Source: a virus. Taken from it: 53,114 nt of DNA. Below the pieces are notes generated by a model. That model searched no databases. It saw nothing but the letters and a program-made list of their open reading frames with translations, and was not told where the DNA came from. Location: the IMG/VR virus record IMGVR_UViG_3300034283_001180, positions 1 through 53,114 of that record, one strand, 5' to 3'. The translations under genes and the position numbers were made by a program. Shown here piece by piece: positions 13,661 through 18,866 of the stretch. Every line of letters starts with the position of its first letter. Position 1 is the stretch's first letter.

Positions 13661-14248
13661 ATGTCCATACATGTGCATGAAAACTTTATAGAAGGACAAG
13701 ACTTAGAAAACATATTAGGGTTTAGCAAATCGTTTAGCCCCGAAGATAAGTTTCTTTGGGGTTATAACGATATTGTTAACTTAGAATATGAAAATAAAAA
13801 TAACATTATTGGTTCACTAGATAAGTGTGTGCTATTTTTGAACGAAGAGTTCTTAAAAAAATATAAATTAAAAAATGATTTAAAAGTAATTAATATATTT
13901 GGTGCAGGGTTGAGACCTGGGAAAAAGTATACTAGACATCAAGATAAAGAATATACATATGAAGGCAAAAAAGACTCAGATGTAGTATACACTGGATTAC
14001 TTTATTTAAATGATGATTATGTTGGAGGAGAATTACTATTAGAAGATCATTCTTCTGATAGTGTAACAGGTGGGCATAAATTAATTAAGCCTAAAGCTGG
14101 AACTTTAATATATTTTACAGAAGATGTCTATCATTCAGTAATGCCCGTTTCTGAAGGTATTAGATACAACATAGTTATGTTTTTTTCAGACGCAGACTTG
14201 CGTAGACCTTTAGCTAGAAAGACTACACTAGAAAACTTTGGTTATTAA
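13661..14248 (+). CDS. 2OG-Fe(II) oxygenase (P4H-like)
   Basis: 195 residues. The iron triad is visible: His93 and Asp95 (RHQDKE) and His158 (YHSVM); Arg168 (IRYNIV) would bind the 2-oxoglutarate carboxylate. The core motif YLNDDYVGGE (about 115-124) and KPKAG are typical of prolyl-4-hydroxylase-like enzymes. The substrate is not deducible. It ends tail-to-tail with the next gene, overlapping by 4 nt, which is unusual and prevents a terminator between them. Confidence 0.85.
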   Translation: MSIHVHENFIEGQDLENILGFSKSFSPEDKFLWGYNDIVNLEYENKNNIIGSLDKCVLFLNEEFLKKYKLKNDLKVINIFGAGLRPGKKYTRHQDKEYTYEGKKDSDVVYTGLLYLNDDYVGGELLLEDHSSDSVTGGHKLIKPKAGTLIYFTEDVYHSVMPVSEGIRYNIVMFFSDADLRRPLARKTTLENFGY

Positions 14249-14907
14249 GAGTATTTATTATTGTCGTAAAAATTTGGTACCTTTAAAAATGCTGGTAACA
14301 CATATCTAATAGGGCCAGCACCAACATGTCTAACTCCATGATTAAACTCATCATTACCTGGGAAGACAATTAGTGTTCCAGGCTCTGGAACAATTTCAAT
14401 GTTTTTGTTGGGCCAGAACACCTGACCATTTTTATAATCATCATGTATATATATGATTGCTGCATACTTAATTGATGGATCTGTGTGTTGATCTGTATGG
14501 GCTACAAGTTCCACCCCTTCTGGCATTCTTTGAAAAAAATAAAATCCAGAGCATATTAACTTTTCTGTACCTTGATCCATAATTTTTTGAAGTCGATTAC
14601 TTACTTGGTGATGAATAGGGTTATCTGTAAATGCTAAGTTTTTATCGTGCCAGTTTTGTGTTACTTCGAATAGACCTTCTGCAACTAAATTTTCAACATC
14701 ATCTCTTCCAAACTTAGCCATACAGAATTTAGCAAGTCCTTGCGTATACTGAATTTCCCAATCAGCTTGAGTAGCATTGTTTATTATTTCAAAATATTGT
14801 TTAATTTCTTCGTCTGTAACAAAATTTTTTACAAGCAATAATCCTTCTACTGGAGTTTCTACTTCATAGCCAGCAGATTCCATTTCTTTTTTGAGATATG
14901 TTGTCAT
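14245..14907 (-). CDS. 2OG-Fe(II) oxygenase (P4H-like), leaderless promoter
   Basis: 220 residues on the minus strand. His137/Asp139 (HTDQHT), His190 (NHGV) and Arg201 (IRYVLP) complete the active site; IHDDYKNGQV replaces the usual LNDDYEGGE. The -10 TATAAT (14919-14914) ends exactly 6 nt before ATG 14907, and the terminator of the upstream unit is just behind it, so the mRNA probably begins at the start codon. The only oxygenase gene in this orientation. Confidence 0.85.
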   Translation of the reverse strand: MTTYLKKEMESAGYEVETPVEGLLLVKNFVTDEEIKQYFEIINNATQADWEIQYTQGLAKFCMAKFGRDDVENLVAEGLFEVTQNWHDKNLAFTDNPIHHQVSNRLQKIMDQGTEKLICSGFYFFQRMPEGVELVAHTDQHTDPSIKYAAIIYIHDDYKNGQVFWPNKNIEIVPEPGTLIVFPGNDEFNHGVRHVGAGPIRYVLPAFLKVPNFYDNNKYS

Positions 14908-15806: not shown

Positions 15807-16364
15807 CTACTTTGGAAATTGAATCATCAATCTCTTTGCTTTACTAATAGAATTTGGCCACGATGACCAGTCTATTCCGCCTTTAGTCATATAATACGTT
15901 ATCTCTGCGTTTATGACTGGATCGAACAAAAGTACGTTCGACCTCAATTCGAATTTCTCTTTACGATCTATACCAAGGTTACCCAGCATGTTGATCTGAA
16001 AAATTCCGTAGGAACTGTCTCCAGTGCTCCTGTTGCCATTGTATGCCATAGGGCGTCCATTAGACTCCGCTTTAGCAATGGCCCACGCCATTTTAAGGGC
16101 GCTTCCTTCAAAACCTACAGACTTGAGAAGTTTTACTAACTCATTATCTGTTAACATTTCCGAAGGTTTGTATACAGTATTGCTGAATTTTTCCAGCGTT
16201 TCTCTTTTCAGTTGTGCTTCTGTTTTAGACTCTACCTTTACAGTTAGAGCTTCGGCTGGCGGTGTATTAACAACTGGTGTTCCAGTATATAAAAACATTA
16301 AACCAACCGCTATTGCAACATAATGATGTAAAACATCACTAAGTTTTTCTTTTATATTCTCCAT
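15807..16364 (-). CDS. Lytic transglycosylase (SLT-type), membrane-anchored
   Basis: The start is set at ATG 16364 because GGAGG (16377-16373) is 8 nt upstream; earlier in-frame ATGs overlap that site. 185 residues: hydrophobic span at about 15-30 (signal anchor or signal peptide), Thr/Lys linker, then a lysozyme-like domain from about 75. AWAIAKAESNGRPMAYN carries the catalytic Glu100, and SSYGIFQIN follows as in SLT/GEWL-type enzymes. It cleaves peptidoglycan glycan strands; export suggests lysis or envelope passage. First gene of its minus-strand unit. Confidence 0.8.
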   Translation of the reverse strand: MENIKEKLSDVLHHYVAIAVGLMFLYTGTPVVNTPPAEALTVKVESKTEAQLKRETLEKFSNTVYKPSEMLTDNELVKLLKSVGFEGSALKMAWAIAKAESNGRPMAYNGNRSTGDSSYGIFQINMLGNLGIDRKEKFELRSNVLLFDPVINAEITYYMTKGGIDWSSWPNSISKAKRLMIQFPK

Positions 16365-16397
16365 TGGCATTTCCTCCATTAGAGATAACGGACTATA

Positions 16398-16438: not shown

Positions 16439-16581
16439 ATAATTTTTATTTATAGTTAACTAATAATCTTACTGTTTTTTATTAGTTTATTTTCTAAAGC
16501 ACTTCCCTTAAAGAATTTTCTTTGGTAGAATTATCTTCTATTATTTTAAAATTAAACCGCAAGGCGGAGAAAAGGTGCTAT

Positions 16582-18516
16582 ATGTCAAGAATTATTGAAA
16601 ACCCATACGAAAACTTTATTGCATTGTCGAGATATGCAAGATGGATCCCAGATGACAATCGCAGAGAAACATGGGGTGAGACAGTTGATAGATACTTTAG
16701 TTTTATGTTAAATCATCTGAAAAATAATTTTGACTATGTTCCAGATAAAAAGCTTGTAGATGAACTTAAAGAGTTTGTTTATGATAGAAATGTAATGCCT
16801 TCAATGAGAGCAGTAATGACTGCAGGTCCTGCTCTTGATAGAGATCATGTTGCAGGGTATAACTGCTCATTTGTTCCAGTTGATTCACCTCGATCATTTG
16901 ATGAGACTATGTATATCTTAATGTGTGGAACTGGTGTTGGATTCTCTGTTGAATACAAGTATGTCAATAAGCTTCCTGCCGTTCCAGAAAGTTTTGAAAA
17001 GTCCAATACAATTATTTCTGTTGAGGATTCAAAGACTGGATGGGCAAAGGCGTATCGTGAACTTCTTGCAATGCTTTGGGCTGGACAAATTCCTTCTGTT
17101 GATGTATCTAAGCTTCGCCCAGCAGGTGCACGTTTAAAGACAATGGGAGGAAGGTCATCTGGACCACAGCCTTTGATTAACCTATTTGATTTTACTATTG
17201 CAAAATTTAAGTCAGCAGCAGGTCGCCAATTGAAACCTATTGAAGCTCACGATATAATGTGTAAGATTGGTGAAGTTGTAGTTGTTGGTGGAGTACGTCG
17301 TTCCGCAATGATTTCGTTATCTAATATTAACGATATTGAAATGGCAGCCGCAAAATCTGGAAACTGGTGGGAAAACAACACTCAACGTGCACTATCAAAT
17401 AATTCAGTAGCATATTCTCGCAAACCAGAAATGGAGCAGTTTATAGCAGAGTGGAAAAATTTATATGATTCAAAATCAGGTGAGCGTGGCATATACAATG
17501 TTGCCGCTGCTCAAAAGCAAGCAGCAAGATGGGGTAGAAGAGACCCAGAAATTCATTACGGAACTAACCCATGCTCAGAAATTATCCTTCGCCCTTATCA
17601 GTTCTGTAATTTATCCGAAGTTGTAATTCGTGAGAATGATTCTTTAAAGGATATTGAAAATAAGGTAAAGTTAGCAACAATTCTTGGAACATGGCAGTCA
17701 ACCCTTACAGACTTCAAATATCTTCGTAAGATTTGGAAAGACAATACTGAAGAAGAAAGACTACTTGGCGTTTCATTGACAGGTCAATTTGGACACAAGT
17801 TTATGTCTGGAAAAGAAAACTTAGAAAAGCTTGGAAAGTTCTTAGAGGACATTAGGGATGTTGCAAGATTTATTAATAAAGCAGAGTCAGATAGAATTGG
17901 AATCAATGAGTCTGCAGCTATAACCTGTGTTAAGCCTTCAGGGACCGTCTCACAGCTTGTAGGAGTGTCTTCTGGAATGCATGCATGGCATTCAGAGTAT
18001 TATATTCGTACAGTTCGTGGAGATAAGAAAGATCCCCTATCAACATTTTTAAAGGAAGTCGGAATTCCCGTAGAAGATGACTTTATGAAGCCAAATGATA
18101 CATATGTATTCTCATTCCCTGTAAAGGCACCAGAAGGTGCAATTGTAAGAAATGATTTAACTGCAATCGATCATTTGAATACATGGTTAGTTTATCAACG
18201 TTCATGGTGTGAACATAAGCCATCTATTACTGTATCTGTTAAAGAAGATGAATGGATGGAAGTAGGGGCTTGGGTATATAAGCATTTTGACGAAGTTTCT
18301 GGAATCTCATTCCTTCCGCACTCAGATCATAGTTATAAGCAAGCACCATATCAAGAGGTAACAAAAGAAGAATATGAAACTCTTCTTTCTCAAATGCCAA
18401 AAAATATTCGTTGGGCAGATTTATCATTTTATGAAACCGAAGACGGTACAAGCGGAACACAGACTTTAGCTTGTACATCAGATGGAAATTGTGAAATTGT
18501 AGATATTTCAGCTTAG
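16582..18516 (+). CDS. nrdJ: Class II (adenosylcobalamin) ribonucleotide reductase
   Basis: 644 residues from ATG 16582 (MSRIIENPYENFIALSRYAR), preceded by AAAGGTG. It reduces ribonucleotides to deoxyribonucleotides using a B12-derived radical, so it needs no separate small subunit and no oxygen. Conserved residues: Cys95 (GYNCSF), Cys331 and Glu333 in NPCSE, Cys342 in FCNLSE, with Cys331 to Cys342 spaced by 11 as in the Lactobacillus RTPR enzyme. A C-terminal Cys631/Cys637 pair would accept thioredoxin electrons. Shorter than RTPR (about 739 aa). No intein or intron. Upstream (16440-16581) no clear promoter is seen. Confidence 0.93.
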   Translation: MSRIIENPYENFIALSRYARWIPDDNRRETWGETVDRYFSFMLNHLKNNFDYVPDKKLVDELKEFVYDRNVMPSMRAVMTAGPALDRDHVAGYNCSFVPVDSPRSFDETMYILMCGTGVGFSVEYKYVNKLPAVPESFEKSNTIISVEDSKTGWAKAYRELLAMLWAGQIPSVDVSKLRPAGARLKTMGGRSSGPQPLINLFDFTIAKFKSAAGRQLKPIEAHDIMCKIGEVVVVGGVRRSAMISLSNINDIEMAAAKSGNWWENNTQRALSNNSVAYSRKPEMEQFIAEWKNLYDSKSGERGIYNVAAAQKQAARWGRRDPEIHYGTNPCSEIILRPYQFCNLSEVVIRENDSLKDIENKVKLATILGTWQSTLTDFKYLRKIWKDNTEEERLLGVSLTGQFGHKFMSGKENLEKLGKFLEDIRDVARFINKAESDRIGINESAAITCVKPSGTVSQLVGVSSGMHAWHSEYYIRTVRGDKKDPLSTFLKEVGIPVEDDFMKPNDTYVFSFPVKAPEGAIVRNDLTAIDHLNTWLVYQRSWCEHKPSITVSVKEDEWMEVGAWVYKHFDEVSGISFLPHSDHSYKQAPYQEVTKEEYETLLSQMPKNIRWADLSFYETEDGTSGTQTLACTSDGNCEIVDISA

Positions 18517-18525
18517 TGCTACAAT
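18497..18525 (+). promoter_or_regulatory. Promoter before the holin-like gene
   Basis: TTGTAG (18497-18502), 17 bp, TACAAT (18520-18525), overlapping the nrdJ stop. A CTGGGC/GCCCAG hairpin (18556-18572) lies in the leader before AGGGAGG. Confidence 0.55.
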
Positions 18526-18587
18526 AATAGTATTGGGATAAAACCCAAAATTCCTGGGCACCCCGCCCAGAAGTAGGGAGGTCTTTA

Positions 18588-18815
18588 ATGAAAGAAGATC
18601 TTAATAATGATGGAAAGGTAACAATGCAAGAAAAAATTCTCGCAGCGCTAGCAAGCTATGGTCGTCACTTTTTAGGTGCGGCTATTGCACTATACATGAC
18701 TGGCAATACAGACCCAGGAGATTTAATTAAGGGTGGTATCGCAGCATGCTTGCCAGTTATTTTAAAGGCGTTAAATCCAAACGAACCAAGTTTCGGGTTT
18801 ACAAAGAAGGCTTAA
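18588..18815 (+). CDS. Holin-like membrane protein with EF-hand loop
   Basis: 75 residues behind GGGAGG. The N-terminus DLNNDGKVTMQE (residues 4-15) is a canonical 12-residue EF-hand loop (Asp1, Asn3, Asp5, Gly6, Glu12). Two hydrophobic segments follow (HFLGAAIALYM and LIKGGIAACLPVILKAL) and the end reads NPNEPSFG, as in small actinophage holins. It would form the membrane lesion that starts lysis; a calcium sensor on it would be unusual. Not beside the transglycosylase but only nrdJ separates them. Alternative: a membrane-associated tail or assembly factor. Confidence 0.6.
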   Translation: MKEDLNNDGKVTMQEKILAALASYGRHFLGAAIALYMTGNTDPGDLIKGGIAACLPVILKALNPNEPSFGFTKKA

Positions 18816-18835
18816 TTTAATAGTCGATTAGGATG

Positions 18836-18866
18836 ACTCCTGTGCTAAAATTGGCATAGGAGTTTT
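18836..18866 (+). terminator. Rho-independent terminator
   Basis: ACTCCTGTGC / GCATAGGAGT (10 pairs, one G-U) with an 8-nt loop, then TTTT. It lies 20 nt past the holin-like gene. Confidence 0.8.

Follow-up and report, generated by a model that had tools for sequence, protein, structure and literature searches.

A predicted two-helix, holin-like membrane protein family of actinobacterial phages, with an EF-type loop at the N-terminus in one clade

Results

The window analysed here is the whole stretch of 53,114 nucleotides, that is, positions 1 to 53,114 of the IMG/VR virus record IMGVR_UViG_3300034283_001180. It holds a small gene for a predicted membrane protein that carries a calcium-type loop, together with the following features (basis of each call in brackets).

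15807..16379, minus strand: SLT_3 lysozyme and candidate lysis partner, hydrophobic and signal-like at its N-terminus (Pfam SLT_3, E 3.2e-14; hydropathy)
18517..18525, plus strand: extended -10 promoter-like element TGCTACAAT (sequence, alignment)
18533..18548, plus strand: leader hairpin 1, TTGGG/CCCAA (hairpin searches, alignment)
18554..18570, plus strand: leader hairpin 2, CTGGGC-ACCCC-GCCCAG, just 5' of the ribosome-binding site (hairpin searches, alignment; compensatory changes in relatives)
18575..18581, plus strand: ribosome-binding site AGGGAGG (sequence)
18588..18815, plus strand: two-helix holin-like membrane protein with an N-terminal EF-type loop, 75 amino acids (sequence, AlphaFold2, hydropathy)
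18597..18632, plus strand: codons for residues 4-15, the EF-type loop DLNNDGKVTMQE (sequence; Pfam EF-hand_5, sub-threshold)
18624..18698, plus strand: codons for residues 13-37, predicted as helix 1, from the exiting helix of the loop into the first hydrophobic segment (AlphaFold2, hydropathy)
18714..18773, plus strand: codons for residues 43-62, predicted as helix 2, the second hydrophobic segment (AlphaFold2, hydropathy)
18835..18864, plus strand: terminator-like hairpin 3' of the gene (hairpin search)

The open reading frame at 18588-18815 (+) begins with ATG, 6 bases 3' of the ribosome-binding site AGGGAGG, and its product of 75 residues reads MKEDLNNDGKVTMQEKILAALASYGRHFLGAAIALYMTGNTDPGDLIKGGIAACLPVILKALNPNEPSFGFTKKA. 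The initial annotation had placed an EF-hand loop just before two hydrophobic segments in this protein, and both motif patterns and hydropathy confirm that arrangement. The segment DLNNDGKVTMQE is 12 residues long with ligands at positions 1, 3, 5 and 12 and glycine at position 6, and it satisfies the 12-position EF-loop pattern as well as the stricter D.[DN].[DN]G.[LIV]...E pattern. The PROSITE pattern PS00018, which spans 13 positions with a hydrophobic residue at the last, is not matched, as K16 stands at position 13. This lysine and the short N-terminus, with no helix before residue 13 in the AlphaFold2 model, also set the protein apart from a full helix-loop-helix EF-hand. Because just three residues precede the loop, there is no room for an entering helix, and what we see is predicted to be half an EF-hand, a loop with its exiting helix. 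The Pfam EF-hand_5 profile scores the window protein below its cut-off (E 0.13, 12.2 bits against 25.9); the best score among 12 relatives is E 5.5e-5. In 200,000 shuffles of the 75 residues, the 12-position pattern arose in a fraction of 2.9e-4 and the strict pattern in 3.5e-5, and the 12-position pattern has a single match in the 38,649 six-frame residues of the window. Together with the ligand-biased conservation described below, these figures led us to reject a chance motif.

The two hydrophobic segments have moderate Kyte-Doolittle means over 19 residues (1.43 and 1.41). AlphaFold2 models made without and with an alignment both place helices at residues 13-37 and 43-61/62, with medium confidence (mean pLDDT 69.9 and 71.7); the loop geometry itself is not predicted, since residues 1-10 average a pLDDT of 49. 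In the models helix 1 thus starts at loop position 10, the place where the exiting helix of an EF-hand begins, and continues as the first hydrophobic segment. A search of PDB folds returned nothing at E <= 0.001. In size and predicted topology (75 amino acids, two hydrophobic helices) the protein resembles a holin; the moderate hydrophobicity of the segments and R26 and H27 within helix 1 count against this reading.

Relatives were collected from viral-contig scans queried with the window protein, the relative in Actinomycetia phage DSL-LC01 and further relatives, plus one genome scan, which gave at least 438 loci and, after identical protein sequences were collapsed, at least 157 unique proteins. 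The proportions below describe this sample rather than nature, because most queries carried the loop, the best 80 matches were kept per scan, and some contigs recur under several locus identifiers. DSL-LC01 is the sole isolate with an annotated relative among the matches listed; that protein is loop-less, 52% identical over residues 10-74 and annotated 'hypothetical protein', and the endolysin named by the depositor lies four genes downstream and scores under the CHAP cut-off. A cellular homologue was found on one metagenome-assembled genome contig (L310, labelled Alphaproteobacteria), the single relative among 195 candidate stretches. No family in Pfam, PHROGs or NCBIfam matches the core of the window protein or its relatives, only the loop being matched, and none of the three names a holin for them; phosphotransferase profile matches (E 0.0007) look like a common short hydrophobic stretch and were set aside. 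By these library searches the family appears undescribed. WhiB is encoded in 15 of 16 large records, and among 14 control genomes only Corynebacterium glutamicum gave a match, which indicates actinobacterial hosts for the loop-bearing phages. The proteins form an abundant family of membrane proteins in actinobacterial phages that is so far uncharacterised.

Of the 157 unique relatives among the matches listed, 115 keep all four ligand positions; 110 of these match the loop pattern and five differ from it solely by valine at position 9. In the remaining 42 the ligand positions are absent or broken: 38 relatives are loop-less, two have the loop deleted (L137, L315) and two read DLKQNGLLEMQE with ligand 3 lost (L358, L359); two recent losses are among the 42. 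Changes were counted over 167 distinct nucleotide sequences with the loop or its ligand-broken form, on a tree built from 55 non-loop codons and leaving out 3 odd-length loci and 57 without the loop. Amino-acid and silent changes number 5 and 57 at ligand positions 1, 3, 5 and 12, and 21 and 48 at loop positions 2, 4, 7, 10 and 11 (Fisher p 0.0018, on parsimony changes uncorrected for codon degeneracy and with position 10 mostly Met and without silent changes). D1, G6 and E12 are invariant in this set, and positions 3 and 5 exchange only N and D, except for K at position 3 in the ligand-broken lineage. A metal site would be expected to show such slow change at its ligands. Taken over all its positions, the loop is under slightly weaker constraint than the core (38/141 changes in the loop, 199/1132 in the core, p 0.037), a pattern that suggests a metal site both useful and dispensable. 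Poor conservation of the loop positions in homologues, the outcome that the initial annotation had named as speaking against its proposal, is thus not found inside the loop-bearing clade. The 'calcium loop' of that annotation gains support in that the ligand positions are kept and constrained, and lacks a curated-profile match at cut-off for the window protein. On the protein tree, which is unrooted and has 52 columns and many weak forks, the loop label needs three changes; these can be read as one gain and two losses, and the loop-less groups may instead have lost the loop.

Constraint on the ligands also suits a use of the loop that we think unlikely, namely a structural or topological clamp that holds the N-terminus of a holin-like hairpin outside and senses nothing. 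Such a loop would always be filled with Ca2+, because an N-terminus outside the cytoplasm would lie in millimolar calcium. The position of the loop, a few residues into the protein and running straight into helix 1 in the AlphaFold2 models, fits a clamp, as does the net charge of the N-terminal segment, which is near zero in relatives and varies by lineage from -2 to +4, so that charge alone would not force an inside location. The C-terminus argues the other way. Among the matches listed, 135 of 157 unique relatives carry a net positive charge over the final 14 residues, which by the positive-inside rule puts the C-terminus inside, and with two helices the N-terminus is then predicted to lie inside too.

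Gene neighbourhoods were tabulated for 209 of 231 selected loci, with at most two loci per unique protein. In 27 of 29 loci of the loop-less group A, the gene comes directly after a CHAP/NlpC endolysin gene of the same strand and often overlaps it. On contig L310 the immediate upstream neighbour is a Peptidase_M15_4 enzyme (E 9e-16), and in group B a VanY/M15-type enzyme lies immediately downstream in the 3/3 loci examined (two above the Pfam cut-off, one below). As the neighbour on L310 is of the M15 type where that of group A is CHAP/NlpC, the adjacency has outlived a change of enzyme class. Whereas an endolysin adjoins the loop-less relatives, the loop-bearing clade has an SLT_3 lysozyme 2-4 genes upstream on the opposite strand (166 of 171 loci), which is present in 16/16 large records. 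These lysozymes are more hydrophobic at the N-terminus than the group-A endolysins (median best 15-residue hydropathy 1.88 against 1.10). A class II ribonucleotide reductase (window 16522-18516) lies directly upstream of the gene and keeps this placement in most loop-bearing loci; with it in between and the lysozyme on the opposite strand, the loop-bearing clade has no lysis operon. CHAP endolysin genes occur elsewhere in 9 of the 16 large records, some beside other small membrane proteins, which leaves the lysis partner of the loop-bearing protein uncertain. The pairing of loop with SLT_3 and of loop-less group A with CHAP would fit a coupling of the loop to an exported lysozyme, but it is confounded with ancestry, and SLT_3 is also present in the loop-deleted (3/3) and ligand-broken (3/3) loci; we therefore rejected the coupling.

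Given the relatives' neighbourhoods, the likeliest identity of the core is a holin or a protein that works closely with a holin. They are also what supports the term 'holin-like' used by the initial annotation, a reasonable and still unproven label that no family library backs by naming a holin.

A doubtful alternative is that the protein is some other lysis-associated membrane protein, such as an antiholin or accessory factor, and that the hole is formed by the phrog_25359 protein or by a 64-residue two-helix protein. Actinophage lysis cassettes often contain several holin-like genes (PMC9671378), which is compatible with this alternative. Two contigs carry such a lysis-like cassette, in which a 64-residue two-helix open reading frame, a lipoprotein-like open reading frame, the two-helix phrog_25359 protein and a CHAP endolysin follow one another (L439:2323-3732 and L440:2751-4153). 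Its last three genes resemble those around the group-A endolysin, so that a lipoprotein-like frame and phrog_25359 directly before a CHAP endolysin are common to both, and the phrog_25359 protein is 44% identical over 79 residues to its group-A counterpart. The cassette may hold an uncharacterised rival holin family. Against this, only 4 of the 16 large records contain phrog_25359, and a search of the window record did not detect it, while the window-type protein is in 16/16, these records having been chosen for holding it.

In the loop-bearing clade, where the gene lies outside the endolysin operon, it apparently has its own transcript. The putative promoter element TGCTACAAT is kept as TGnTAnAAT in most aligned relatives, and the region contains 7 terminator-like sites against 2.0 expected from shuffles. 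Of 173 upstream sequences, 145 have hairpin 1 and 147 have hairpin 2 (35 and 25 in shuffles), and pair changes on both sides of a stem occupy 22 cells in 60 aligned sequences against 3.8 in shuffles, with 0/500 shuffles as high. No Rfam family reached its gathering score on the leader (window 18517-18581 and the loop-bearing loci). A PyrG leader match over the downstream terminator, at 32 bits against 65, was taken as chance.

A separate promoter-like element, leader and terminator in the window, apart from any lysis operon in the loop-bearing clade, would suit a membrane protein that has nothing to do with lysis, lies near lysis genes by happenstance and carries the loop as a passenger motif; the absence of a family annotation points the same way. 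We regard this as very unlikely, given that the endolysin adjacency persists across the change from CHAP/NlpC to M15 and that the ligand positions are constrained.

Discussion

With moderate confidence, we read the protein as a holin-like hairpin whose action is tuned when a divalent ion binds where helix 1 begins. The phage would be a large one that infects actinobacteria, and in the clade of the window protein helix 1 of the two-helix hairpin would be the exiting helix of a half EF-hand; for this reason a divalent ion, most likely Ca2+, could bind at the membrane edge. Late in infection the hairpin would build up in the cell membrane and then permeabilise or depolarise it, after which the SLT_3 lysozyme with its signal peptide, and the CHAP endolysin where present, would reach or attack the wall. 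A bound ion would neutralise the acidic cluster, cap helix 1 and add two positive charges beside it, and this would shift the topology or timing of helix 1. The loop, the family, its gene neighbourhoods, the selection pattern and the losses were observed directly, and holin activity, ion binding and the effect on timing are what we infer. The small protein probably contributes to lysis of the bacterial host by a freshwater phage, and calcium control of that lysis is possible.

The loop would tune the hairpin rather than enable its function, since two lineages with a missing or broken loop nonetheless retain the core, as befits an accessory tuner and not a pore-forming part. The initial annotation further proposed a calcium-responsive holin or one that needs calcium for insertion. 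As a requirement this finds no support, for the membrane core is kept in relatives that are loop-less, loop-deleted or ligand-broken, and the latter two groups also retain the same neighbour genes. A modulatory role of the loop is possible. A calcium-gated holin is quite unlikely and could take either of two forms. In one, a loop left empty in the low-calcium cytoplasm would allow the N-terminus to cross the membrane, and Ca2+ filling it outside would latch helix 1 in the lytic topology; in the other, calcium entering through the first lesions would fill the loop and synchronise the collapse. Were this so, lysis timing would read membrane integrity and freshwater calcium. A charge-switch ratchet as a general rule is weakened by the variation of N-terminal net charge between lineages.

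Class II (two-transmembrane) holins of double-stranded DNA phages share the small size, the predicted hairpin and the charged C-terminus, as well as the endolysin adjacency seen here in loop-less relatives. The window protein differs from them by its N-terminal EF-type loop, by matching no Pfam, PHROGs or NCBIfam holin model and, in the loop-bearing clade, by what appears to be its own transcription unit. Dockerin type I repeats and other half EF-hands, with a DxDxDG loop and an exiting helix and no entering helix, offer a parallel in shape; four of 12 relatives give weak Dockerin_1 matches (best E 0.013). In contrast to dockerins, the loop here is a single copy with E rather than D at position 12, and its exiting helix is predicted to be transmembrane. 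The endolysin LysGH15 reportedly has an EF-hand-like calcium site, that is, a calcium-type loop in a phage lysis protein, but there it belongs to the lysin and not to a membrane protein. In lambda S, charge at the N-terminus of helix 1 decides topology and timing (review PMC9636201). The holin-antiholin pairs of lambda (S107/S105) and of the phage 21 S gene embody the same idea, although in those pairs a dual start sets the charge, whereas ion binding could change it here. No holin with an EF-type loop was seen among the open-access papers listed.

The family adds actinobacterial-phage membrane proteins to the search for the lysis genes of these phages. As the moment of lysis is set by holins, the loop-less, loop-deleted and ligand-broken natural relatives with the same core are a ready-made comparison for divalent-ion tuning of that moment.

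Minor observations by eye concern other genes. In one phage record (L441:3586-4631), an AhpC-like peroxiredoxin and an AhpD-like protein adjoin a CHAP endolysin, and at 13661-14907 the window holds two adjacent convergent open reading frames that resemble 2-oxoglutarate/iron oxygenases.
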